Under the pieces are notes generated by a model, which made no database searches, had not been told where the DNA came from, and worked only from the letters and a program-made list of their open reading frames with translations. This document shows, one piece after another, positions 22,425 through 34,343 of a DNA stretch of 50,170 nucleotides. The translations under genes were made by a program, and so were the position numbers. The stretch lies in contig JAMPAC010000020.1 of the NCBI GenBank assembly GCA_023667395.1, forward strand, positions 1 to 50,170, in the 5' to 3' direction. The stretch is from Blautia sp. (GTDB taxonomy: Bacteria > Bacillota > Clostridia > Lachnospirales > Lachnospiraceae). How positions within the stretch are numbered: the first letter of the stretch is position 1; every line of letters starts with the position of its first letter.

Positions 22425-24551
22425 TTACGGAAGTCTCTGTATATTCTCAAACTCCACTGTCCAGTTTCCGTCCTTGGGGAAGCCGGGCAGTTCTCTGTCG
22501 CAGCCTTCGTAGCCTGCGGTCATGATCGCAGCCGCCAGAAGCAGGGAACCGTTTCCGGGCAGGTACAGGGGCAGGTCTTTTCTGCTGATCTGCATGTTGT
22601 TCCCGCTGGCAAGGTAGCAGTTTTTCAGCGTATCTTTCAACAACAGCCGAATGGCCAGTTCCGGCTCATCCAGGCGGACGGCCGTCATTGCCATAAGTGC
22701 GAAGTCCCAGCCCCAGAGCGTGGGATACTCCCAGCACTTTTCCACCAGGTGCAGGGTATCCGCCATGATCCCCGTATCGATCCGGTCGCTTCCGATCAGT
22801 CCGTATGCGCCCAGCATGGAAGGGTGATCTTTATTATACACCGTGTAAGTGTCATGGCATTTCTCATGCGCCAGATATACGCCGTCCTCCACCGTCAGGC
22901 CTGCCATATGGTCGGCCACCTCCTGCCACCTGGCATCCGGGACTTTATCCAGCCGCTTCGCCCATTCCGCCGCCATGCGCAACGTGACCCTCCAGTACTC
23001 CACCTCAAATGCAGGATTCACCGTGTCGGTCTCCTTATGGCACTCCTGCACGGGAATCACCGGGGCGGGAATATCGTAACAGCCGTGCTCCTCATTCCAT
23101 ACCACGAAATCTGTCATGAACTGCGCCGTTTCCTCCACCACCTGCCAGTATTCCTCCAGGAATGCCCGGCTCTTTTGATTTTGGTACCGCATTTCCATCA
23201 TGTAAATGATGTGCGGCTGCTGCCATACCAGGAGCGTTGCTATGGGAGATGGCGCATCTATCCCCTCCGCTGCGATCATCTTTGGCCAGCGCGCGCCCTG
23301 ATAGCCGTTCCTGCGGGCATTCTCCCTGGCTGCAGGCAGGTGTTCTTTATACCATTTCAGACTGCGTTCCAGCAGATCGCAGTGGTTCCAGAGCGGCAGC
23401 CATGCGCAATGCCAGAGGTACATCTCCAAGTGCATCTTTCCATACCAGCTGTTGCAGATCAGTCCCGTCTCCTGGGGCGGAGTGGAACCGCTGGAATTGA
23501 CCGCCATCAGGTACTGGGACAGGATGATCCTGCGTTCCAGTTCCCAGGCTCTCTTATCCTTGCTTTGGTTCAGCCGGATGATACCGCCCTTTTCCCAGAA
23601 ATCTTTCCAGCCCTGGCGGCTTGCCTCCATGATTGCAGAGACGGATTCCACCCATTTCTCCATTGCCGTGCCTGCGTTGTCTTTTTTTATGGTCTCGCTG
23701 TCATCGACATATTTCCCGATCATACTGTCCCAGGCATAAAATGCCGCATAAAATGCTGCCGACAACTCCAGGACACTGCCCTTTGCCTCCACGGTCAAAG
23801 TGTGTTTCGCAAGCTGTTCCCCAATCACGCCGTCAGACGATATTGCCACAAAATAACAATCCCTGTCCAGCTGCCTTTTCAACAGAATACTCTGCTCCGC
23901 CCGGCTCACTGCCTCCGTGGTATGCAGGTCTTCCGCGTTCCAGTCGGACGCGGTAATGTCAGGGGAGCCGTAAGGGAAACGGATTTCCACCGTCAGGCTT
24001 CCGTCCGCCAGCGCCGGGCTCTCCACCCGGAAAGCCAGCTGGTCTTTTCCCTGGTTATGACACGCCGTCCGCACGCTGCATGGGATACCATCCAGCAGAA
24101 AACGGCTCTCCAGGATGCCCTCATACAGCTTCAGTTCCTGATGGATGCAGGTCAGCTGCTCCGACCGGATCCTCTGTCCCTGATACAGGAAACCGATCCT
24201 TGCCAGGTTCAGCCGGTGGGGATTCATCCTGAGCCACTGATAGACATCTTCGTTGCCGGGAAATTTCTTTTTGGCATACCTTACATGCCTGCCATCGCAG
24301 ACGTCATATTCTGTCATCACCAGGTCGTTTAAAGTATAGTCGTACCTGTCATCGCTTACGGGCTTCGTGTGCCATCCCCACTGGGACATGGTGCACAGGG
24401 GCAGTACGTCATATTCCTCATACAGCGTCTGCATACCCGTGACATCCGCCGTGAATGCAAACTCGCCGTTTCCCACCGTAAGGGCGGATTCCCTGTCCAT
24501 CTCTTCCAGCACCGGATCATGGCTGCTTATCAATTCCTTTCGGTCGATCAT
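22425..24551 (-). CDS. Six-hairpin (alpha/alpha)6-barrel glycosidase, GH65/GH95-like
   Basis: A 708-residue protein with an N-terminal beta-sandwich region and a C-terminal alpha/alpha-barrel, as in clan GH-L enzymes. The segment GLICNSWYGKMHLEMYLWH followed by NGYQGARWPKM parallels the WDTE...GY.GA.FPWE region of GH65. The exact family and substrate are not clear. Its neighbours suggest a role in trimming pectin side chains. No signal peptide is seen, so it should be cytoplasmic. It lies 76 bases after the beta-propeller gene on the same strand. Confidence 0.65.
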   Translation of the reverse strand: MIDRKELISSHDPVLEEMDRESALTVGNGEFAFTADVTGMQTLYEEYDVLPLCTMSQWGWHTKPVSDDRYDYTLNDLVMTEYDVCDGRHVRYAKKKFPGNEDVYQWLRMNPHRLNLARIGFLYQGQRIRSEQLTCIHQELKLYEGILESRFLLDGIPCSVRTACHNQGKDQLAFRVESPALADGSLTVEIRFPYGSPDITASDWNAEDLHTTEAVSRAEQSILLKRQLDRDCYFVAISSDGVIGEQLAKHTLTVEAKGSVLELSAAFYAAFYAWDSMIGKYVDDSETIKKDNAGTAMEKWVESVSAIMEASRQGWKDFWEKGGIIRLNQSKDKRAWELERRIILSQYLMAVNSSGSTPPQETGLICNSWYGKMHLEMYLWHCAWLPLWNHCDLLERSLKWYKEHLPAARENARRNGYQGARWPKMIAAEGIDAPSPIATLLVWQQPHIIYMMEMRYQNQKSRAFLEEYWQVVEETAQFMTDFVVWNEEHGCYDIPAPVIPVQECHKETDTVNPAFEVEYWRVTLRMAAEWAKRLDKVPDARWQEVADHMAGLTVEDGVYLAHEKCHDTYTVYNKDHPSMLGAYGLIGSDRIDTGIMADTLHLVEKCWEYPTLWGWDFALMAMTAVRLDEPELAIRLLLKDTLKNCYLASGNNMQISRKDLPLYLPGNGSLLLAAAIMTAGYEGCDRELPGFPKDGNWTVEFENIQRLP

Positions 24552-24627
24552 GCTTGTACCTCCAAAGTCTTTACCTGCGCTTAATCATATCACCAAAAAT
24601 GCAAAATATCAATTAATTTATACCGTT

Positions 24628-26652
24628 TTATGAAAAATCCAGGTAACTTCCATCGGGATACGCGTACTCGCCCCGGTAGTTCGATGCGTTATAATGGGGG
24701 AATTTCACGGGATGATATGTCTGGGACGCAGGGTTGTCCTCCTGGGTGTATATGTACATGCTGTGATAGTCCCAGCACACCAACTCCTCCCTCTCGTCGC
24801 CGAACAAATCCATAGCTTCACAGCAAAGCGTGGGATGCCCGTCGTCCGGAAACGCAACTGCCCGCACGCCGTCTCCGTTCAGTAGACCGCCTTTTTCCGC
24901 ATCCGCGTTGGTAAGGATCAGTTCCACACCGCTGCCATCCCAGTTTACGGGAGTCACCAGATTGCCATTCATCTCATTTTCCATCTCCCAGATCTGCTTC
25001 CCATCCGAGTCATAGAGATAGATCACCCCCTGATGCCCCCAAAAATTGGTCACTGCGATCTGGAACCCCTCCCGGTCTTTGCAATAATGCGCCACACTGA
25101 CCCTCTGGGCGTGTCCTATAAGATCCCTTGCCACAATATTTCCCGCAAAATCGCCTATGAAAAATCCCTGTGTCCCTGACACACAGGCAAAATATCCCTT
25201 ACCGTCCCCCCTGAATTTTCCCATGACAATCTCGTCCGTGTGATCTTTGGCAATGGGATAACTCCATAATTTCTCTCCCTCCGCGCTGAGCATGTTGTAG
25301 CCCACCAACACCTCATCCCTGCCGTCGCCGTCGATATCCACAGGCAGGGGGCAATGTCCCGTATTCTTGTCGCTGCGGTATTTCCAGAGCAGGTTCAGAT
25401 CCTCGTCCAGCGCGTAAACCCTGCAATACCGATCCTTGATCAGGATATCCGCCGGTCTGTCTTTCCCCCTGAAATTACAGATCCGGATGCCGTCCGGATT
25501 GATCCGCTCAAAGGCATATGTGCCAAAAGGCACGCCGATCAGGGTACTGTCGTCGTCATCGGAATAAGGCGTCTTTACCGACTTTTTCACCTTTCCGGTG
25601 GCGCCCTCCAGGATCTGGATCTCAAAATTTCTCCCCACTATGACCTCATCCGCACCGTCTCCGTCAATATCATACACCTGCAGGGGCATATCGGCGGATA
25701 CCCTGCCATGCCTGCAGCTGTCAGGGGACGGCTCTCCCGACTGCCATAAAATACTGCCGTCCAGGTCAATGGCCGTAAGGCAGCTGATAAATCCATAGGC
25801 ATCCCTGCTGACACGCTTCTGCATCTGCGCCAGAACCACATACCACTGTTCTGTGCCTGTCAGATGTCCGAAACGGATCTGCCGTGAAGTGCCAAAATTT
25901 TTTAAATCAATCTTCTTCCAGAGTTTCATCCGGGGATGATATGACATTTCTGTCATTTCCTGTTCCCGCTTTTTTCCCTGCCTGGTCAAGAGCGCTAATG
26001 CTTCCTCCCCGGATACCATGGCCGTCACACCTGCAAACCGGGTGGGGCAATCCGCCGTAATGCCGATCTTGCCGCCCCTTGCCGCCAGTTCACTTTCCGC
26101 CTGGAGCAGTAATTTTCCGTCCACACAGCAGGCGATCTGTTCCCCATTACAGTCCACGCTTAATGTGTACAGGGTATCACAGTCATGTACAAATTCGCAC
26201 TCCGCCAGCAGGGTCAGTTCCTCCTTGTGGCGGTAGGAAAGTTCCGCCCTGTCCTTATCACGCAGGGAAAAGACCAGCGTGTCGATACTGTTGTTCATGC
26301 AAAACGCAAGTCCCGCCATCCCCTTTTGGGACAGCCTCTGCATCTTTACGGAAACCACATAATCCCGCCAGAGCCCGTCCCCTGTCTCCAGGGTGGGAAA
26401 CATGCGGTGAGGACGGTTTTTCTCGATCCGCATGGATTCCATGTAATGAACGCCGTCCAGTTCCGTGACAATCCAGCTGGGACCCGTTCCGTTGTATGTG
26501 TAATTGCATACCTGATCCACCCAATTGCCGGAATAGCCTTTCTCTACAATATAATGATACTCTCCCGTGGCCGTATGTTCCGGGTCAAAGGGAAACTCCC
26601 CTATGGCAAAATCCTGAAAATCCTCTTTACATAACACATGGTCTTTTTTCAT
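24628..26652 (-). CDS. LamG-like plus FG-GAP beta-propeller protein, rhamnogalacturonan-lyase-like
   Basis: A 674-residue protein. Residues of about 20-215 look like a concanavalin/LamG-type sandwich. The rest is a beta-propeller with calcium loops DIDGDGADEV (328-337) and DIDGDGRDEV (439-448), as in FG-GAP proteins and the PL11-type rhamnogalacturonan lyases. The catalytic role is therefore plausible but unproved; a binding function is the alternative. There is no signal peptide. It heads the enzyme operon with its own promoter (26679-26707), and the ABC transporter operon on the same strand ends just beyond the nuclease island. Confidence 0.6.
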   Translation of the reverse strand: MKKDHVLCKEDFQDFAIGEFPFDPEHTATGEYHYIVEKGYSGNWVDQVCNYTYNGTGPSWIVTELDGVHYMESMRIEKNRPHRMFPTLETGDGLWRDYVVSVKMQRLSQKGMAGLAFCMNNSIDTLVFSLRDKDRAELSYRHKEELTLLAECEFVHDCDTLYTLSVDCNGEQIACCVDGKLLLQAESELAARGGKIGITADCPTRFAGVTAMVSGEEALALLTRQGKKREQEMTEMSYHPRMKLWKKIDLKNFGTSRQIRFGHLTGTEQWYVVLAQMQKRVSRDAYGFISCLTAIDLDGSILWQSGEPSPDSCRHGRVSADMPLQVYDIDGDGADEVIVGRNFEIQILEGATGKVKKSVKTPYSDDDDSTLIGVPFGTYAFERINPDGIRICNFRGKDRPADILIKDRYCRVYALDEDLNLLWKYRSDKNTGHCPLPVDIDGDGRDEVLVGYNMLSAEGEKLWSYPIAKDHTDEIVMGKFRGDGKGYFACVSGTQGFFIGDFAGNIVARDLIGHAQRVSVAHYCKDREGFQIAVTNFWGHQGVIYLYDSDGKQIWEMENEMNGNLVTPVNWDGSGVELILTNADAEKGGLLNGDGVRAVAFPDDGHPTLCCEAMDLFGDEREELVCWDYHSMYIYTQEDNPASQTYHPVKFPHYNASNYRGEYAYPDGSYLDFS

Positions 26653-26678
26653 GGCGGTATCCTTTCTTCTTTTTCTAC

Positions 26679-26707
26679 AGTATAGCCTTTTCTGTGGAAT
26701 ATGGCAA
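26679..26707 (-). promoter_or_regulatory. Promoter of the pectin-enzyme operon
   Basis: TTGCCA (26702-26707), 17 bases, TATACT (26679-26684), reading leftwards into the beta-propeller gene. The same sequence is copied at 29278-29306 and, with one -35 change, near 28064-28092. Confidence 0.65.
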
Positions 26708-26721
26708 TGAGGAAGTTTTTA

Positions 26722-26750
26722 TTGACAAAATCCTATTGATATGTTATTGT
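26722..26750 (+). promoter_or_regulatory. Promoter of nuclease copy 1
   Basis: TTGACA (26722-26727), 17 bases, TATTGT (26745-26750), 99 bases upstream of the ATG. An ATGCCAT/ATGGCAT hairpin (26764-26780) lies in the leader. Confidence 0.6.
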
Positions 26751-26849
26751 CCTATTATCTTATATGCCATTTGATGGCATCTTGCAGGGTCTTCGGTGTT
26801 TCACCAGATATCCCTCATTTATTTATACTGAATACAAAGGAGATATTTT

Positions 26850-27887
26850 ATGCATGATTATGACAATGCGTCACTGATCTTTCCGATAGTGCAACCGCTC
26901 CCGCAGGTACTTGGTGAACCCAGACTTAAAACGGAGATTCTGCGTCAGATCCAAAGCGACTCCGGCGCACATGCCGCTTTTCAGGCTCTCTCTGAGGAGG
27001 AGCGGGATGCTTTCCTAGGGTTCTGCATGGGCAACAGGGGCTTGAAGATCACTTACGACCCTTTTTTTCTCCATCTGTTTGACCCCGCCATTCACCCGGA
27101 CAGGTTGAACCGGCTGTTATCCTGCATTTTAAACCAGAAAGTTACGGTCCTGGAAGTTCTTCCGAGGGAACGACGCCGCATTTCGGAGGACAGTTCGCTT
27201 ATCATTATGGATATTCTGGTCCAGCTTTCCGACAACCGCCTGGTCAATGTGGAAATGCAGCGGATGGGATATGATTTCCCCATAGAAAGGGGATTCTGTT
27301 ATGGCGCGGACCTGCTGGTACGCCAATATGATATGGTTCGGAAAGAATACAAAGATAATAACCAAAATTTCTCGTACAGTCACATTGAACCTGTGTATAT
27401 TATTGTTTTTATGGAACAAAGTCCCCCTATTTTCCACAAATATCCTGACAAATACATGCATCGATCGCAGTTTGGTTTCGACAGCGGGCTGAAAACCAGA
27501 CAATTGGAAAACTTTATCTATATTCCACTTGATATTTTCCGGCAGATGGTTCATAATGAACTTACGGAACTGGATGCATGGATGTACTTTCTGGGGTCTG
27601 ACCATCCGGAAGACATACTGCGGATCATGAAACGATATCCGTTCTTCCAGGAACTATATTATGACATTGTTAAATTTCGCTACCAGCCAAAGGAGTTGAT
27701 TACTATGTTTTCTGAAGCACTATACATCATGGATCGGAATACAGTTCGATATATGGTCGACGAACTGAAAGCGGAATTATCCAAAAAAAATCTCGAGTTA
27801 TCCCAAAAGGATTCCGAGTTATCCCAAAAAGATTCCGAAATTAAGCGGCTGCGCGCCCGATTAGCGCAATATGAAAAAGGCACCTGA
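26850..27887 (+). CDS. Rpn-family PD-(D/E)XK nuclease/putative transposase, copy 1
   Basis: A 345-residue member of the Rpn/PDDEXK_2 family (recombination-promoting nuclease, often annotated as transposase). GLKITYDPFFLHLF opens the nuclease domain. Asp121 (MDILVQL) and Glu135-Met-Gln137 (NVEMQR) are the expected metal-binding residues. From about residue 310 it has a coiled-coil of heptads built on ELSQKDS/ELSQKNS. AAGGAG is near the ATG. The first 313 or so residues are identical to the copy at 29449-30507, while the coiled-coil has three heptads here and four there. Members promote recombination rather than classical transposition in the cases studied. Confidence 0.85.
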   Translation: MHDYDNASLIFPIVQPLPQVLGEPRLKTEILRQIQSDSGAHAAFQALSEEERDAFLGFCMGNRGLKITYDPFFLHLFDPAIHPDRLNRLLSCILNQKVTVLEVLPRERRRISEDSSLIIMDILVQLSDNRLVNVEMQRMGYDFPIERGFCYGADLLVRQYDMVRKEYKDNNQNFSYSHIEPVYIIVFMEQSPPIFHKYPDKYMHRSQFGFDSGLKTRQLENFIYIPLDIFRQMVHNELTELDAWMYFLGSDHPEDILRIMKRYPFFQELYYDIVKFRYQPKELITMFSEALYIMDRNTVRYMVDELKAELSKKNLELSQKDSELSQKDSEIKRLRARLAQYEKGT

Positions 27888-27901
27888 ACCTCTCAGGTGT
27901 C
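27879..27901 (+). terminator. Terminator of nuclease copy 1
   Basis: GGCACCTGA (27879-27887) and TCAGGTGTC (27893-27901) form a stem with one G-T pair, followed by TTTCC. The stop codon is inside the stem. Confidence 0.65.
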
Positions 27902-27920
27902 TTTCCATTTATAATCCTTA

Positions 27921-28050
27921 AAACACAATCCCTGAACTTTTCACAGCGCTGCCCATATCCGTCAGGATCAGTATACGCCTCAGCACGATCTGCAAAGGTT
28001 GCATCGTCTTACCCTTAGCACCGTCCTCCAGATAGATGAATGCCGGGAAA
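27921..28050 (-). pseudogene. Permease 3'-end fragment A
   Basis: This stretch matches the end of the full permease gene (30541-30800), with about 130 bases missing after the AGCGC(C/T)G segment and several substitutions. It stops at ATGAATGCCGGGAA, exactly where fragment B stops. It is a non-coding by-product of the tandem duplication. Confidence 0.8.
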
Positions 28051-28100
28051 GTTCTTTTCCTACAGTATAGCCTTTTCTGTGGAATATGGAAATGAGGAAG

Positions 28101-28162
28101 AAAACTTTATCTATACTTCACTTGATATTCTCCGGCGGATGGTTCATAATCAATTTACAGAG
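28101..28162 (+). pseudogene. Remnant of a third Rpn-family nuclease gene
   Basis: AAAACTTTATCTATA and the following bases align with 27507-27568 of copy 1, with about eight substitutions. The 5' half and the 3' end are absent. It is joined directly to the copied promoter region. Confidence 0.75.
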
Positions 28163-28196
28163 TTTTTTGAATTCTAATGAGTGAAAGGAGACCTTT

Positions 28197-29201
28197 GTGG
28201 ATCAGAATTTTTACAATGAAATAAGAAATATTTTGCTTTCTGCAAGAACCAAAGTTTACCAGACCGCTAATTTTGCAATGGTTGAAGCATACTGGAATAT
28301 CGGAAAGTCTATTATAGAAGAACAGGGCGGAAACGAAAAAGCCGAATATGGTACGGGACTGTTAAAGGAACTCTCAAAGCAGATGACGCATGATTTTGGA
28401 AAAGGATTCACGGTTGCAAATTTAAAAAATATGCGTCAGTTCTATTTAACATTTCCAAATGGCTACGCGCTGCGTAGCGAATTGAGTTGGACTCATTACC
28501 GTCTTTTAATGCGTGTGGAAAATAATCATGCACGGGAGTTTTATATGCAGGAAGCTGTGAAATCAGGGTGGAGTACCAGACAGCTTGAACGCCAGATAAA
28601 TACATTCTTTTATGAAAGACTGCTTTCCAGTCAAAATAAGGAAAAGGTTGCTGCTGAAATTCAGACATTGGAGGCAGCCAAAATGCCCGAAGATATTATT
28701 CGTGACCCTTATGTACTTGAATTCCTCGGATTAAATCCAAATGATGATTTCTATGAGAGTGATTTGGAACAGGCATTGATTACTCATCTGCAGAAGTTTC
28801 TGTTAGAATTGGGCAGGGGATTTTCTTTTGTTGCCAGGCAAAAGAGGATCACCTTTGACGGACGACATTTTTGGATTGATCTTGTGTTCTACAATTATAT
28901 CCTGAAATGTTTTGTGCTGATTGATTTGAAGGTTGGCGATTTGACGCATCAGGATTTGGGGCAAATGCAGATGTATGTCCACTATTATGAGCGTGAGTTG
29001 ATGAATGAGGGAGATAATCCGCCGATTGGGATTGTTTTATGTGCGGACAAAAGTGAATCAGTGGTTAGATTTACCTTGCCGGAGAATGAGACACAGATTT
29101 TCGCTTCTAAATATAAATTATATTTGCCGAGCGAGGAAGAATTGCTACAGGAATTAAGACGGGAATATCGGGCGTTAGAGCATGAAAAGTTTACAGACTG
29201 A
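28197..29201 (+). CDS. DUF1016/YhcG-type PD-(D/E)XK nuclease
   Basis: A 334-residue protein with the DUF1016 N-terminal helical domain (YWNIGKSIIEEQGG, LKELSKQMTHDFGKGF) and the C-terminal YhcG nuclease domain. The active site reads Asp228 (WIDLVFYN), then Asp243-Leu-Lys245 (LIDLKVGDL), with Gln256 after it. The usual Glu of E-x-K is Asp here, a permitted family variant. Start is GTG at 28197, with AAAGGAG six bases upstream. Such proteins are linked to restriction systems and mobile elements, but no methylase or restriction partner is present. The gene sits inside a degraded Rpn unit, and its base composition is more AT-rich than its neighbours, suggesting transfer. Confidence 0.85.
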   Translation: MDQNFYNEIRNILLSARTKVYQTANFAMVEAYWNIGKSIIEEQGGNEKAEYGTGLLKELSKQMTHDFGKGFTVANLKNMRQFYLTFPNGYALRSELSWTHYRLLMRVENNHAREFYMQEAVKSGWSTRQLERQINTFFYERLLSSQNKEKVAAEIQTLEAAKMPEDIIRDPYVLEFLGLNPNDDFYESDLEQALITHLQKFLLELGRGFSFVARQKRITFDGRHFWIDLVFYNYILKCFVLIDLKVGDLTHQDLGQMQMYVHYYERELMNEGDNPPIGIVLCADKSESVVRFTLPENETQIFASKYKLYLPSEEELLQELRREYRALEHEKFTD

Positions 29202-29209
29202 TTTAGAAA

Positions 29210-29263
29210 AGGCTGCATCGTCTTACCCTTTGCATCGTCATCCAGATAGATGAATGACGGGCA
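29210..29263 (-). pseudogene. Permease 3'-end fragment B
   Basis: About 54 bases match the full permease gene at roughly 30747-30800 and stop at the same junction as fragment A (ATGAATG followed by CGGG). It lies between the DUF1016 gene and tandem unit 3. Confidence 0.75.
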
Positions 29264-29277
29264 AGTTCTTTTTCTAC

Positions 29278-29306
29278 AGTATAGCCTTTTCTGTGGAATA
29301 TGGCAA
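29278..29306 (-). promoter_or_regulatory. Copied pectin-operon promoter, now facing the DUF1016 gene
   Basis: The TTGCCA, 17, TATACT promoter of 26679-26707 is duplicated here unchanged. It would transcribe leftwards, antisense through permease fragment B and the DUF1016 gene. Confidence 0.55.
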
Positions 29307-29320
29307 TGAGGAAGTTTTTA

Positions 29321-29349
29321 TTGACAAAATCCTATTGATATGTTATTGT
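29321..29349 (+). promoter_or_regulatory. Promoter of nuclease copy 2
   Basis: TTGACA, 17 bases, TATTGT, identical to the promoter of copy 1 and offset by 2599 bases. Confidence 0.6.
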
Positions 29350-29448
29350 CCTATTATCTTATATGCCATTTGATGGCATCTTGCAGGGTCTTCGGTGTTT
29401 CACCAGATATCCCTCATTTATTTATACTGAATACAAAGGAGATATTTT

Positions 29449-30507
29449 ATGCATGATTATGACAATGCGTCACTGATCTTTCCGATAGTGCAACCGCTCC
29501 CGCAGGTACTTGGTGAACCCAGACTTAAAACGGAGATTCTGCGTCAGATCCAAAGCGACTCCGGCGCACATGCCGCTTTTCAGGCTCTCTCTGAGGAGGA
29601 GCGGGATGCTTTCCTAGGGTTCTGCATGGGCAACAGGGGCTTGAAGATCACTTACGACCCTTTTTTTCTCCATCTGTTTGACCCCGCCATTCACCCGGAC
29701 AGGTTGAACCGGCTGTTATCCTGCATTTTAAACCAGAAAGTTACGGTCCTGGAAGTTCTTCCGAGGGAACGACGCCGCATTTCGGAGGACAGTTCGCTTA
29801 TCATTATGGATATTCTGGTCCAGCTTTCCGACAACCGCCTGGTCAATGTGGAAATGCAGCGGATGGGATATGATTTCCCCATAGAAAGGGGATTCTGTTA
29901 TGGCGCGGACCTGCTGGTACGCCAATATGATATGGTTCGGAAAGAATACAAAGATAATAACCAAAATTTCTCGTACAGTCACATTGAACCTGTGTATATT
30001 ATTGTTTTTATGGAACAAAGTCCCCCTATTTTCCACAAATATCCTGACAAATACATGCATCGATCGCAGTTTGGTTTCGACAGCGGGCTGAAAACCAGAC
30101 AATTGGAAAACTTTATCTATATTCCACTTGATATTTTCCGGCAGATGGTTCATAATGAACTTACGGAACTGGATGCATGGATGTACTTTCTGGGGTCTGA
30201 CCATCCGGAAGACATACTGCGGATCATGAAACGATATCCGTTCTTCCAGGAACTATATTATGACATTGTTAAATTTCGCTACCAGCCAAAGGAGTTGATT
30301 ACTATGTTTTCTGAAGCACTATACATCATGGATCGGAATACAGTTCGGTATATGGTCGACGAATTGAAAGCGGAGTTATCCCAAAAAAATCTCGAGTTAT
30401 CCCAAAAGAATTCCGAGTTATCCCAAAAAGAGTCCGAGTTATCCCAAAAAGAGTCCGAAATCGAACGACTGCGCGCCCGATTAGCGCAATATGAAAAAGA
30501 CACCTGA
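29449..30507 (+). CDS. Rpn-family PD-(D/E)XK nuclease/putative transposase, copy 2
   Basis: A 352-residue near-duplicate of the gene at 26850. Residues 1 to about 313 are the same, including the Asp121 and Glu135-x-Gln137 active-site positions. The C-terminal coiled-coil has one more seven-residue repeat and reads ELSQKNS, ELSQKES, ELSQKES before EIERLRARL. The 21-base length difference is thus one heptad unit. It has the same upstream promoter and the same ribosome site as copy 1. The gene points towards the permease gene on the other strand, and the two share a terminator. Confidence 0.85.
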   Translation: MHDYDNASLIFPIVQPLPQVLGEPRLKTEILRQIQSDSGAHAAFQALSEEERDAFLGFCMGNRGLKITYDPFFLHLFDPAIHPDRLNRLLSCILNQKVTVLEVLPRERRRISEDSSLIIMDILVQLSDNRLVNVEMQRMGYDFPIERGFCYGADLLVRQYDMVRKEYKDNNQNFSYSHIEPVYIIVFMEQSPPIFHKYPDKYMHRSQFGFDSGLKTRQLENFIYIPLDIFRQMVHNELTELDAWMYFLGSDHPEDILRIMKRYPFFQELYYDIVKFRYQPKELITMFSEALYIMDRNTVRYMVDELKAELSQKNLELSQKNSELSQKESELSQKESEIERLRARLAQYEKDT

Positions 30508-30524
30508 ATCTCTCAGGTGTCTTT
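30496..30524. terminator. Bidirectional terminator between nuclease copy 2 and the permease
   Basis: GACACCTGA (30499-30507) and TCAGGTGTC (30513-30521) pair perfectly. TTT follows on the plus strand and TTTTT on the minus strand. It can end both the nuclease transcript and the ABC transporter transcript. Confidence 0.8.
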
Positions 30525-30552
30525 CCATTTATAATCCTTAAAACACAATCCC

Positions 30553-31473
30553 TTAACCCTTCACAGCGCCGACCATAACGCCCTTTGTAAAATACTTCTG
30601 CAGGAAAGGATACAGACACAAAATAGGCACTGTGGAAACGATGATGGTCGCGTACTTGATGGTCTCGGCGATCTGGGCTGCATCATCGGCGCCGCCCGTA
30701 TCCGTCATATCCGTCAGGATCAGGATACGCCTCAGTACAATCTGCAAGGGCTGCATGGTCTTACCCTTTGCATCGTCATCCAGATAGATGAATGCCGGGA
30801 ACCAGGAATTCCAGTGCGCAACGCCGTAGTACAATACCAGCACGGCAATGGTTGCCTTACACAGGGGAACCAATATCTTCCACAAAATGGTCATATGCCC
30901 CGCGCCGTCCAACATGGCGGATTCTGTCAGGGCATCGTCGATACCCGACATGGCGGTCCTCATGATGATCAGGTTGTAAGTACTCAGGGCGCCGTGAAGC
31001 AGGAGCACCCAACGCGTATTGTACAGGTGCAGATCCTGGATATTCAGGTATCCGGGGATCATACCGCCTGAGAAATACATGGTAAACATAATAAAAATGG
31101 TAAAGAACGTCTTGCCGGGCAGGTTCTTTCTGGAAAGGAAGTAAGCTGCCAGCAGGGTCATGAAAATATTGATGGCGGTACCGGCCACCACATAGAAGAT
31201 CGTATTTCCATAACCGGTCCAGATCGCTTTCGTGTTAAATACATACTCATATGCCTTTGTGCTCCATCCCAGAGGCAGCATCAACGCTTCCGGATGGGAC
31301 ATCAACAGGTTTGACTCACTGAACGACGCCACTATAACATACCAGAAAGGATAAAGGCAGGCTATCGTGAACAAGGACAGTATGATAATATTGCACACAT
31401 TAAAGATGTTTTCACCACGGCTGTGCTTTACCTTGGGGCTGGAGTCCATCATATCTCTATCTTTTTTTGCCAT
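30553..31473 (-). CDS. Sugar ABC transporter permease, YtcP/LplC type
   Basis: A 306-residue inner-membrane protein with six hydrophobic segments. The EAA loop that docks the ATPase is visible (SAMLDGAGHMTILWKILVPL). It belongs to the carbohydrate-uptake-1 permease group, and the MesH-like C-terminus FTKGVMVGAVKG is typical. GGAGG lies nine bases before the ATG. It is the third gene of a binding protein, permease, permease operon. No ATPase gene is present, and such systems often borrow a shared MsmK-type ATPase. Fragments of its 3' end are duplicated at 27921-28050 and 29210-29263. Confidence 0.92.
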   Translation of the reverse strand: MAKKDRDMMDSSPKVKHSRGENIFNVCNIIILSLFTIACLYPFWYVIVASFSESNLLMSHPEALMLPLGWSTKAYEYVFNTKAIWTGYGNTIFYVVAGTAINIFMTLLAAYFLSRKNLPGKTFFTIFIMFTMYFSGGMIPGYLNIQDLHLYNTRWVLLLHGALSTYNLIIMRTAMSGIDDALTESAMLDGAGHMTILWKILVPLCKATIAVLVLYYGVAHWNSWFPAFIYLDDDAKGKTMQPLQIVLRRILILTDMTDTGGADDAAQIAETIKYATIIVSTVPILCLYPFLQKYFTKGVMVGAVKG

Positions 31474-31488
31474 ATTCTCACGCCTCCC

Positions 31489-32442
31489 TTACCACAAGCT
31501 TGTTTCCGTAGTCTTCTTACTGATCTGGTTCGCAATGATGACCAGAATAAAGTTGACTACCGAGTTAAACAGACCTACTGCCGTTGAGAAAGAGAACTGC
31601 CTGTTCAGCAGACCCATTCTATATACATAGGTTGAAATGATATCAGCCACATCATAAATTCCTTCGTTATACAGCAAGAGTGTCTTCTCATATCCGATAC
31701 CCATGATCTGACCCACACGCATGATCAGCATGATGATGATGGTGGGAAGGATGCTGGGGATCGTAACATGCAGCGTCTGTTTCCAGCGGTTCGCGCCGTC
31801 CACCCTGGCTGCGTCATACAATTCGGAATCGATGCTGGTCAGAGCCGCCAGATATACAATGGAACCCCAGCCTGCACCCTGCCAGATATTGGAAATAACA
31901 TAGATCGGAATCCAGTATTTCCCGTTGGCCAGCAGGTTGCCTCCCTCATATCCGAAAAGCGACATAAATGCCGTAATAAAACCGTTTCCGCCTACAAACT
32001 GACGAACCATTGCACACAATACCACCATGGATACGAAGTGGGGCATATAAGTGATACTCTGTACAATCTTGGAAAATTTCTTGCTGCGCAGTTCATTGAT
32101 CAGCAGCGCCAGAATAATGGGAATAGGGAAACCGATCAACAAAGTCGCAAAACTCAGCTTCAAGGTATTTGCGAGCAGACGCCCGAAATAATAGCCCGTG
32201 AAGAAATCCTTGAAGTGCTGTAAACCCACCCAGTCATTAAAGTCTATGCCTCTTCTGGGATTGTAGTCCATAAAGGCAATGATGACACCGTACATAGGCT
32301 TATAGTGGAATAATACATAATAGAGAATAACGGGAAGAAGCATAAAATAAACCGCTTTGTTTTTCCTTATGATCTTCCATGACCTCGCCCAATTCGCTTT
32401 CCGATTAACCTTAGCCGGTGCAGAAACCTTGTCTTTTCCCAT
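31489..32442 (-). CDS. Sugar ABC transporter permease, YteP/LplB type
   Basis: A 317-residue permease with about six membrane segments; the partner of the gene at 30553. It has the family opening RSWKIIRKNKAVYFMLLPV and LFHYKPMYGVIIAF, and the EAA loop AARVDGANRWKQTLHVTIPS. The ATG at 32442 is preceded by AGGAGG with seven bases spacing; the frame extends upstream, but that part lies in a terminator-like hairpin. Relatives (LplB, YteP) import pectin or alginate-like oligosaccharides, which fits the downstream enzymes. Confidence 0.93.
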   Translation of the reverse strand: MGKDKVSAPAKVNRKANWARSWKIIRKNKAVYFMLLPVILYYVLFHYKPMYGVIIAFMDYNPRRGIDFNDWVGLQHFKDFFTGYYFGRLLANTLKLSFATLLIGFPIPIILALLINELRSKKFSKIVQSITYMPHFVSMVVLCAMVRQFVGGNGFITAFMSLFGYEGGNLLANGKYWIPIYVISNIWQGAGWGSIVYLAALTSIDSELYDAARVDGANRWKQTLHVTIPSILPTIIIMLIMRVGQIMGIGYEKTLLLYNEGIYDVADIISTYVYRMGLLNRQFSFSTAVGLFNSVVNFILVIIANQISKKTTETSLW

Positions 32443-32474
32443 GCACAATCCTCCTATCGAGATGATAAGGACAG

Positions 32475-32506
32475 AAAAGCCAGCTGCTGCATCAGCAGCA
32501 GCCGGC
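32475..32506 (-). terminator. Attenuator-like hairpin between binding-protein and permease genes
   Basis: GCTGCTGC (32483-32490) and GCAGCAGC (32495-32502), extended by GCC/GGC, form a strong stem followed by TTTTCT on the minus strand. Partial termination here would give more binding protein than permease, a common arrangement in such operons. Confidence 0.65.
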
Positions 32507-32546
32507 CTGTCTAATCTCCACATCTTACTATTTATTTTCTGCGGAC

Positions 32547-34343
32547 TTATCTTGCATTGTAACGGTCAAGCGCTGCCTGTTGGAGTTCGATCATCCTGTC
32601 AACGCCCTGATCCTTGATCTGAGCAACGTATGCATCCCACTCAGCCATCACATCGGAAGAACCGTTCAGAACTTTACCACGGAACTCTGTTACAGCGGTA
32701 TCTACTACAGCATTCAGCTTAGCGTACTCATCTGATTCGTCAGGAGTCATGGTTACAGGAGGCATGATCGTACCACTTACATCATTGGTAGCCCAGAGGG
32801 AAACTGCTGCCTTCTGCTGCTCGGTTGCGTAGTAACCAAGGATATATGCAGGATCCTGAATGAAAGCGCCTGACATGTTCGCACGACCATGATGAGCCAT
32901 CTCTACTGCGATATTATCAGCATTCATAATGGAATCAGCATATTTAGCTGCGGTACCGTAAGAAGTCTCCTCAAATCCGTTGTATGCAACGCCTTCTTCA
33001 CCAAAATTGATCTCATTGTGTCCAGCCTCGGTATAGCAGAAGTTCAGGAATGCTGCTGCAACCTCAGGATTCTTGCAGTCTGCGGTAATAGCCGCATGTG
33101 CCTTGGAACCTGTAGCATAATCGGTGGAACCGCCGCTGTACTGAACAGCCTGACCTGCGGTCAATACGGGGAAGTTCACGCCAACCAGTTCGAAATTCTC
33201 ACCATAAGTAGCGGGCTCTGCCCATGCTGCGGTATTCCAGGAACCCATTCTGGAACCAAGTGCACCGTAGCTGATCGCGGAATCACCGTTCATGATATCC
33301 GCCTTGGTGTTAGCACTGGTCCACTCTGCGGAATCAGGATCAACCAGGCCTGCATCCATCCATGCCTTAACCTGTGCCAGCATGTCCCTGTAGCCCTCTT
33401 CCATGGGACCATAGTGAACCTTGCCGTCCTCAGCGGATACATACATACCGCTTCTGAAACTCCATGCACCGGGCATCAGGTTCATCATGTAGCCTGTGCT
33501 CTCGAAAGAAAGAGGATGCTCAACGCCGTTCTCTTTCATGGCGGTCATAACTTCTGTCCACTTGTCGATGGTGGTCAGGTCTTCTACCTTATAGCCGGCC
33601 GCCTCTACCAGATCCTTACGAACGATCGGTCCGGATGTGGTGCACAGTAACGCACTGCCGCGGGTAAACGGGAAGCAATAGTAATGGCCGTCGTCAGTCT
33701 TGATAGCGGTATCCAGGGAAGGATTATCCTGCAGGTACTGCCAAAGGTCTGCCGCGGGGCCGTCAGGTGTGATCAGGTCATCCAGCCAAATCACAACGCC
33801 ATCCGCCTCTGCCTGGGAAGGTCCACCGGGATATCCGGCTGTCCACTCCCACTCAATAATGTCGGGAAGGGTGCTGCCTGTGGTCATCAGGTTGAATGCG
33901 GTAGTAACCTCATCACTCTTTGTGGTAGCAGGTCCCTGGAACTCTACTTCGATACCTGTCAGTTCCTGCCAACGCTGAGCCCACAGAGTCATCTGAACGG
34001 AATCAGGTGTTTCCGCATGGTTCATTACGTTGCTGGAAACGCTCATCCAGTATGTAAGCTTCACGCCTGCGCCGTCTGCGTAGGGATACTGTACATAGCT
34101 GCTTCGGGGCGTTGTCAATGCGCCGGGCTTACCCTGTTCTGCATCGCTCAGTGCGGGAAGCAGTTCTGCGCCTGAATCTGCAGCTGCACTGCTTGCATCT
34201 GCAGCGGTACTGCCCGCCGCCTGGCTGCTGGAGTCACTGGGGGGGGCACTTGATGCGTTGCTGTCATCGCCACCGCCGCAGCCTGCCAGCATGGAGACTG
34301 CCAGTACGGAAGCTGTCGCAACAGACAAAAATTTCTTCTTCAT
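32547..34343 (-). CDS. Extracellular sugar-binding lipoprotein, LplA/YtcQ type
   Basis: A 598-residue solute-binding protein. The lipobox LAGC places the lipid anchor at Cys22, and a Ser/Ala-rich linker follows to about residue 60. The rest is a family-1 binding-protein fold. It would capture the oligosaccharide outside the membrane and pass it to the two permeases downstream. AGGAGG precedes the ATG. A C8 tract (plus-strand G8 at 34239-34246) lies in the linker, where a slip would frameshift the protein. The ligand is inferred to be pectin-derived from the enzymes in the same region. Confidence 0.93.
   Translation of the reverse strand: MKKKFLSVATASVLAVSMLAGCGGGDDSNASSAPPSDSSSQAAGSTAADASSAAADSGAELLPALSDAEQGKPGALTTPRSSYVQYPYADGAGVKLTYWMSVSSNVMNHAETPDSVQMTLWAQRWQELTGIEVEFQGPATTKSDEVTTAFNLMTTGSTLPDIIEWEWTAGYPGGPSQAEADGVVIWLDDLITPDGPAADLWQYLQDNPSLDTAIKTDDGHYYCFPFTRGSALLCTTSGPIVRKDLVEAAGYKVEDLTTIDKWTEVMTAMKENGVEHPLSFESTGYMMNLMPGAWSFRSGMYVSAEDGKVHYGPMEEGYRDMLAQVKAWMDAGLVDPDSAEWTSANTKADIMNGDSAISYGALGSRMGSWNTAAWAEPATYGENFELVGVNFPVLTAGQAVQYSGGSTDYATGSKAHAAITADCKNPEVAAAFLNFCYTEAGHNEINFGEEGVAYNGFEETSYGTAAKYADSIMNADNIAVEMAHHGRANMSGAFIQDPAYILGYYATEQQKAAVSLWATNDVSGTIMPPVTMTPDESDEYAKLNAVVDTAVTEFRGKVLNGSSDVMAEWDAYVAQIKDQGVDRMIELQQAALDRYNAR
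34239..34246 (-). repeat. C8 homopolymer in the lipoprotein linker
   Basis: Eight C residues in the coding strand, encoding Pro-Pro within SSAPPSDSS just after the lipobox. The surrounding plus-strand 15-mer (34238-34252) is the same as at the G8 tract of the glycosyltransferase. Confidence 0.8.

Follow-up and report, generated by a model that had tools for sequence, protein, structure and literature searches.

The window, a stretch of 50,170 nucleotides comprising one entire contig (JAMPAC010000020.1, or C119 in our set) of a Blautia sp. assembly (GCA_023667395.1; 206 contigs, 4.43 Mb, 94% complete), carries a tandem array of rpn genes between positions 26667 and 30507. The array is real and old. 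We describe it as a putative rpn toxin-antitoxin array with heptad tails, a codon-constrained promoter signature, homogenization of the nuclease core only, and a DUF1016 gene as a guest. A history that combines insertion, tandem duplication, gene conversion, and a toxin-antitoxin pair built as a gene within a gene is probable; the anatomy, the empty site, the identity tract, the codon constraints, and the heptads are read from sequence, and the order of events and the gene conversion are what we infer from them.

The proposed history would run as follows. One rpn gene, equipped with a promoter and a leader, would have landed, without target duplication, between the terminator of a permease operon and an RGL11-type lyase gene, placing the rpn stop codon inside the permease-operon terminator. 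An illegitimate tandem duplication, which joined a breakpoint in the permease gene to the insert's left end and left two additional bases, AG, at the join, would have produced two units, and unequal exchange would have produced three. The middle unit would have lost most of its rpn gene and taken up a DUF1016 nuclease gene, and later gene conversion would have homogenized units 1 and 3 from the start of the unit to position 27748, just inside the tail. Each rpn gene would encode two products: a full-length PD-(D/E)XK nuclease, RpnL, which is the predicted toxin, and a C-terminal coiled-coil protein, RpnS, which is the predicted antitoxin, made from a conserved intragenic Shine-Dalgarno (SD) sequence and probably from a conserved intragenic promoter. 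One toxin core would be common to both copies, with antitoxin tails of three and four heptads.

The three units lie head to tail on the forward strand and are built from repeats well above chance (300 nt at 100%). Each opens with a common upstream segment at 26667, 28052, and 29266, as the original prediction had described. Unit 1 (26667–28049) holds an intact rpn gene of 345 aa, and unit 3, measured up to the rpn stop codon (29266–30507), holds another of 352 aa. Unit 2 (28052–29263) is decayed and occupied by the DUF1016 gene. It retains 48 nt of the upstream segment (2 of 48 positions changed; the rpn −35/−10 elements and the leader are gone), a 62-nt rpn relic (28100–28161, forward strand; 7 of 62 changed), and about 54 nt of the permease gene. 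Three like Rpn units had been proposed, a description that fits units 1 and 3 but not unit 2. Units 1 and 2 do stop, as claimed, at one common point within the permease gene, in a mutated version in unit 2 (ATGAATGACGGGCA), and unit 3 runs into the intact permease gene (30553–31473, reverse strand). The reverse-strand permease scrap of unit 1 (27954–28049) is 91% identical to 30706–30801 and adjoins an internal deletion of 132 bp; that of unit 2 lies at 29208–29261 (reverse strand). Decay is uneven: the predicted decay of the middle copies is seen in unit 2 and in the permease scraps, whereas the nuclease copies are intact, with no differences in the 855 positions before the internal start, and everything from 27749 on has diverged. 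Three features had escaped the original prediction: the DUF1016 gene, the putative intragenic antitoxin, and an identity between copies 1 and 3 that resembles conversion.

The junctions and the empty site support a tandem duplication with one breakpoint in the permease gene and the other at the insert's left end. The unit 1/2 junction contains an AG (28050–28051) that neither present parent sequence explains, and an identical AG occupies the second junction (29264–29265), which suggests one illegitimate junction afterwards copied by unequal exchange. The original prediction had proposed such a duplication, with a breakpoint in the permease gene and another before the pectin promoter. The empty site, a zero-copy allele, is found in G108, the nearest relative, which shares 14 kb of synteny at 89–93% identity and has about 80 bp between RGL11 and the permease gene. 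Genome searches covered 138 genomes of the genus, 49 of which contain a match to the window Rpn; G108 is not among them. When contig C11 of G108 is aligned to the window by blastn, a single base (7113 of locus L205) meets both 26671 and 30490, so that the window has 3818 extra bp (26672–30489, the entire insertion) without a target-site duplication.

This geometry bears on two alternatives. An insertion element with terminal repeats that transposed three times into one hot spot is largely refuted by the empty site, and we give it almost no weight. The rpn orthologs do occupy unrelated neighborhoods, and the spot holds other DNA in G001 and G159, as such an element might suggest; the permease scraps and the identical AG at both junctions speak against it. 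The sole inverted pair of at least 25 nt in 25500–32500 is formed by two terminator copies, so there are no terminal inverted repeats of at least 25 nt, shorter ones having been checked by eye only. A transposon with terminal inverted repeats and target-site duplications is rejected as neither is seen at the array, in line with the original prediction. The second alternative holds that the Rpn nuclease cut here and drove its own duplication. Rpn proteins have been linked to RecA-independent transfer, and rpn arrays are present in several genomes. PMC10327210 discusses self-amplification only as possible. Ordinary tandem duplication with unequal exchange requires no nuclease, and nothing at the array points to a cut site; we consider self-amplification distinctly improbable here. 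The array itself shows direct tandem duplication with neither target-site duplications nor terminal inverted repeats, the pattern by which that work characterizes rpn arrays (PMC10327210).

On the right flank, the native permease-operon terminator (30496–30524, reverse strand) contains the rpn stop codon within its stem, and a duplicated copy lies in unit 1 (27876–27904, reverse strand). The terminator scan listed the unit 1 copy and missed the native one. The original prediction had counted the terminator as a component of the rpn unit, an assignment we reject: the stem is visible by eye in the zero-copy relatives G108, G157, and G127 and also in G001, and its presence in the G108 gap indicates that the terminator is the permease operon's own. 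In the window, TATGAAAAAGACACCTGA closes the rpn gene; in G108 it is ordinary intergenic sequence.

The permease scraps allow the duplication to be dated relative to the split from G108. The unit 1 scrap differs from the intact permease gene at 9 of 96 sites, and the G108 permease gene differs from the intact window gene at 68 of 918; on this comparison the duplication looks nearly as old as that split. Six of the nine scrap differences are changes in the scrap only, and three carry the G108 base, two of which are clear changes in the permease gene. Two observations hint at an origin of the scrap in another lineage. At the third of these sites (site 44), units 1 and 2 carry the G108 base and most farther outgroups carry the base of the window's genome (G000), and five of the six changes found in unit 1 only fall at third codon positions, above the expectation from simple decay. 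Together with the species-like divergence from 27749 on, they are what one would expect if unit 1 had acquired its tail, its terminator, and its permease scrap from a sister lineage by recombination, the tail being foreign and the core not converted. We regard this import as unlikely: the shared AG junction and the unit 2 scrap are as expected from local descent, the genomes searched yielded no donor sequence, and a young core would be needed all the same.

The comparison of copies 1 and 3 stands in contrast to the age of the duplication. The tract 26667–27748 is identical to 29266–30347, letter for letter over 1082 bp on the forward strand, promoter and leader included. From 27749 on, the copies differ by about 6–9% through the tail, the terminator, and the scrap (11 of 183 in the tail), and the identical tract stops 44 nt inside the predicted antitoxin frame. 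All coding differences between copies 1 and 3 follow the internal ATG and amount to 11 substitutions and one 21-nt insertion or deletion. The simplest reading of this tract, and a probable one, is that the two intact units exchanged sequence by gene conversion. Conversion would account for the identical core, and the relic in unit 2 would have been too broken to be converted, hence its divergence.

To place the tract in context, tail and core divergence was compared in rpn pairs from relatives, whose loci came from a contig scan (80 kept of 343, mostly Lachnospiraceae by their titles) and from the genome searches. Four of 40 close pairs were dropped for involving L030_68, which is the gene L020_1363 present again in truncated form; within- and between-genome pairs were assigned from contig names, and the pairs are not independent. 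The tail-to-core ratio ranges from 0.3 to 3.5 in 13 between-genome pairs. By these ratios, 19 differences (at the highest) or 41 (at the median) would be expected in 1082 bp, and none is observed. Among within-genome pairs, 13 of 23 exceed all 13 between-genome pairs, and they are spread across 7 of 10 genomes. Similar mosaics occur elsewhere: the two-contig genome G793, of another family, has an array (L187) with 2 differences in 720 core positions, 3 in the next bin of 60, and then 58 in 203; G035 is similar; and Ruminococcus turbiniformis, RGIG8589, and L189 are partial cases. In L193 the identical tract covers the tail instead of the core, and in L188 the differences within the gene consist of one repeat gap of 24 nt, two gaps of 1 nt each, and 2 substitutions. 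The mosaic is not general, being absent in L185 and Sarcina, weak in L186, and mixed in L192.

Several results count against the conversion reading. Tail-over-core divergence across genomes is not significant by per-genome medians (one-sided p = 0.08), and for this reason we reject tail-biased divergence as a general rule; in 3 of the 10 genomes (G029, Sarcina, and CALWLN), no pair lies beyond the between-genome range. The assembly has 206 contigs, and the tract ends exactly where difference begins, as would happen if two diverged copies had been merged through a short-read graph. This artefact is the main technical rival, and assembly does break at rpn in the relative G001, where the gene is cut at two contig ends; at one of them, positions 1–40 of L070 (G001 C98), inside rpn, presumably derive from an Illumina adapter (frame RSEEHTSELQSQ), which points to an assembly break. 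We nevertheless consider an artefact rather improbable. The comparable mosaic in G793 comes from an assembly of two contigs, pairs with identical or nearly identical cores and different tails exist in several other genomes, some on separate contigs, and the tail and scrap of copy 1 itself stay distinct.

The boundary of the tract directs attention to the rpn tail, which looks like an intragenic antitoxin gene. In both copies, an internal SD sequence, AAAGGAG (27689–27695 in copy 1 and 30288–30294 in copy 3), lies 9 nt ahead of an in-frame ATG that would start a predicted rpnS gene: 27705–27887 (60 aa) in copy 1 and 30304–30507 (67 aa) in copy 3, all on the forward strand. An SD sequence and in-frame start before a variable tail are features of the published RpnL/RpnS pairs, as is a variable repeat region after the internal start, here with a period of 7 instead of 4. 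Farther upstream, each copy has a promoter-like element, TTGATA-17-CATAAT (27529–27557 and 30128–30156, forward strand), located by consensus and codon analysis, which may be active as a promoter. RpnS is expected to form a coiled coil. By analogy with E. coli, the window rpn genes would act as toxin-antitoxin pairs, and as copies 1 and 3 differ by one heptad (3 against 4), their antitoxins may not cross-neutralize.

Relatives preserve these signals in their codons. The set comprises 120 rpn open reading frames (ORFs), 104 of them unique, from which 35 share the first motif, 89 the M..D.NT motif, and 90 the LD..N site, and 98 entered a codon scan. One gene (L020_1363/L030_68) is counted twice in some codon and SD counts, and the sequences share kinship, which makes binomial p-values too small to be read as probabilities. 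Lys-Glu pairs at the internal site are written AAGGAG in 23 of 23 cases in the 35 first-motif genes, against 18 of 110 elsewhere in these genes. An SD-like word precedes the internal start in 55 of 89 genes (synonymous shuffles: mean 21.7, maximum 31) and other Met codons in 56 of 889. The upstream element, TTGAYA-17-CANAAT in relatives, is encoded by Leu-Asp and His/Gln-Asn codons, with Asp for His/Gln in nine genes. Its Leu codon is CTT in 90 of 90, compared with 687 of 3456 (20%) elsewhere; its Asn codon is AAT in 90 of 90, compared with 665 of 1187 (56%); and 86 of 90 have TTGACA or TTGATA as their −35 hexamer. The codon-column scan (223 columns, 98 genes) ranks Leu227 first (CTT in 98% of 98), Glu282 sixth (GAG 50/50), and Asn236 seventh (AAT 95/95); three Ser columns and Val283 stand between, the Ser columns probably owing their rank to split codons. 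The tails repeat with a period of 7: self-identity reaches 0.375 at lag 7 and 0.382 at lag 14, against 0.075–0.098 at the remaining lags, and 88 of 89 tails score best at lag 7 or 14. AEGK-type repeats of 4 residues appear in some arrays of other families (for example, L187 and L188). Two results temper the case for an internal start and promoter. By the pattern used, 34 of the 89 internal starts have no SD sequence, and of 15 rpn genes taken from other families in the phylum, 14 have an internal promoter score that does not stand out against synonymous shuffles, so the element is not seen outside the window's clade in those genes; the exception, L186, scores 10 of 12, which 3 of 100 shuffles equal.

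A broader, tentative idea is that rpn arrays generate mutually insulated toxin-antitoxin pairs: conversion would keep one shared core, the antitoxin, for the most part spared by it, would drift by whole heptads, and the built-in rpnS promoter could be captured, as perhaps by DUF1016 in unit 2. If true, every rpn copy comes to be neutralized by its own RpnS alone. The locus is a case in which the empty site and the junctions are visible, permease scraps provide a relative date, and a conversion-like tract leaves most of the antitoxin part untouched. Through its codon signature (CTT..AAT, then AAGGAG), the internal promoter and start already described for rpn can be tied to a specific sequence in a second clade. 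Heptad steps, where tetrads were known, make it possible to test cleanly whether toxin-antitoxin specificity depends on register or on the length of the coil.

The rpn genes themselves, copy 1 (26850–27887, forward strand; 3 heptads) and copy 3 (29449–30507, forward strand; 4 heptads), belong to PF12784. The Pfam scan was run on copy 3, which scores 56.4 bits against a curated PDDEXK_2 cut-off of 27.4; the NCBIfam model TIGR01784 stays below its cut-off (24.5 versus 52.1). Residues D121, E135, and Q137 of the nuclease core, which we take to be catalytic, are invariant in 10 of 10 aligned sequences. A sequence search for relatives in the PDB gave no convincing match (best E 0.11). At least three further, very different PF12784 genes occur in the same genome (C111:338948–339592, C140:123228–123875, and C111:46113–46775). 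Copy 1 is preceded by a promoter-like TTGACA-17-TATTGT with a TG (26722–26750, forward strand), a consensus match only, in a region with 17 promoter-like sites against 10.7 in shuffles. Downstream lies a leader 24-mer, GGGTCTTCGGTGTTTCACCAGATA (26787–26810, and again at 29386–29409, forward strand), which the genome search, allowing up to 3 mismatches, located 6 times in 4 of 138 genomes. In all but one case it precedes an rpn gene of the window subfamily; the exception is a relic in G036 (C95, L200) with no rpn behind it. The 24-mer is identical before rpn in G000, G001, and G159 while the proteins are only about 70% identical; at the same threshold it was not found in G026, G066, G092, G139, and G158, despite an rpn of the window subfamily. 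In the nearest relatives (G159, G001, and G036), unit homology starts at the equivalent of 29312–29321. A folded leader is rejected (z −1.19; 23 of 200 shuffles fold as well), and a search for RNA families in 24500–32800 gave a single match, far below the gathering score. Phage carriage of rpn is likewise rejected, a viral-contig scan with two peptide patterns having given 1 relative.

The guest in unit 2 is a DUF1016/YhcG gene (28197–29201, forward strand) of 334 aa with a GTG start, predicted to encode a PD-(D/E)XK nuclease. It passes the Pfam cut-offs for DUF1016_N and YhcG_C and matches PDC-S02 of PADLOC over its full length (PDLC04807, E 6e-149, residues 3–330), which makes it a phage-defense candidate. 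Its close relatives (87–95%) in G062, G107, G017, and G150 have other locations, and the nearest of them has only 28181–29192 in common with the window, the gene and its ribosome site. The rpn relic keeps TTGATA-17-CATAAT at 28122–28150, 47 nt before the GTG, and its 7 changes spare both hexamers; as the probability of such sparing by chance is 0.20, capture of the relic promoter by DUF1016 is a suggestion only. DUF1016 beside rpn is not a habit: among 157 loci searched with phmmer, the only hits lay in loci of the window and in loci of its genome that had been chosen for their DUF1016 gene.

The array separates two neighbors. On the left is an RGL11-type rhamnogalacturonan lyase-like gene (24628–26652, reverse strand) with orthologs in 7 other genomes of the 138 searched, none of whose loci shows an Rpn match (flanks of up to 1.5 kb). 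On the right is the intact permease gene, predicted by family match (BPD_transp_1) to encode an ABC sugar permease. The gap between them is short in G108, G157, G127, and G153, and in G125 the locus does not reach the permease gene. A leftward promoter-like element, TTGCCA-17-TATACT (26679–26707), lies in the upstream segment; this consensus match could serve RGL11, which the insert now separates from the permease operon. In G001 the equivalent intergenic spot is occupied by an ORF of 155 aa (L069 5612–6079), convergent to the permease gene. It is rejected as an rpn remnant, since neither Pfam nor NCBIfam gives a hit for it at E up to 1, and it matches only itself among the loci compared. An ORF after the orthologous permease gene in G012 (L072 5748–6959) resembles what we take to be an IS110-type transposase, so the spot seems to acquire foreign DNA repeatedly.

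Two known frames help to place the array. Tandem duplicates undergo concerted evolution by gene conversion, and the window resembles such cases in its long identical tract flanked by diverged sequence; unlike them, its tract stops 44 nt into the predicted antitoxin frame, and the tails stay distinct. Unlike other DUF1016/YhcG genes (PDC-S02), the window gene sits inside a decayed rpn unit, 47 nt behind a relic that retains the promoter-like element. In E. coli, according to PMC10327210, an internal start also yields the rpn tail as a separate protein, RpnS, and RpnS blocks the full-length toxin RpnL; a cloned C. difficile gene likewise yields its tail separately in E. coli. The tails of RpnA and RpnB give no cross-protection, and one repeat added to RpnC breaks neutralization. 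The same paper marks an internal promoter (Figure 1A legend) with transcript starts inside all E. coli rpn genes, and holds that rpn arrays appear to come from tandem duplication without target duplications; the work by Zhong and colleagues leaves the origin of rpn repeats and duplicates open. The array mechanism and the internal rpn promoter as such are already known. The promoter-like element, its codon constraint, heptad tails, and rpn gene conversion were not found in the literature searched, a search that most subscription journals lay outside and that was not aimed at heptads. Behind an array of three rpn genes in G035 lies a further, incomplete tail copy that contains a stop (L194 8534–8740); it recalls the downstream rpnS copies published for E. 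coli. With E. coli RpnA–E and RpnP2 (PMC10327210), the window genes share the PD-(D/E)XK_2 nuclease, a variable repeat tail, tandem arrays without target-site duplications or terminal inverted repeats, a predicted internal start with an SD sequence over a Lys-Glu pair (K240/E241 and M244 in RpnA), and probably an internal promoter. They differ from the E. coli genes in a repeat unit of 7 residues (21 nt) rather than 4 residues (12 nt), in a defined, codon-constrained promoter-like element and SD sequence across the clade, and in copies within one array that have an identical core and tails one repeat apart.

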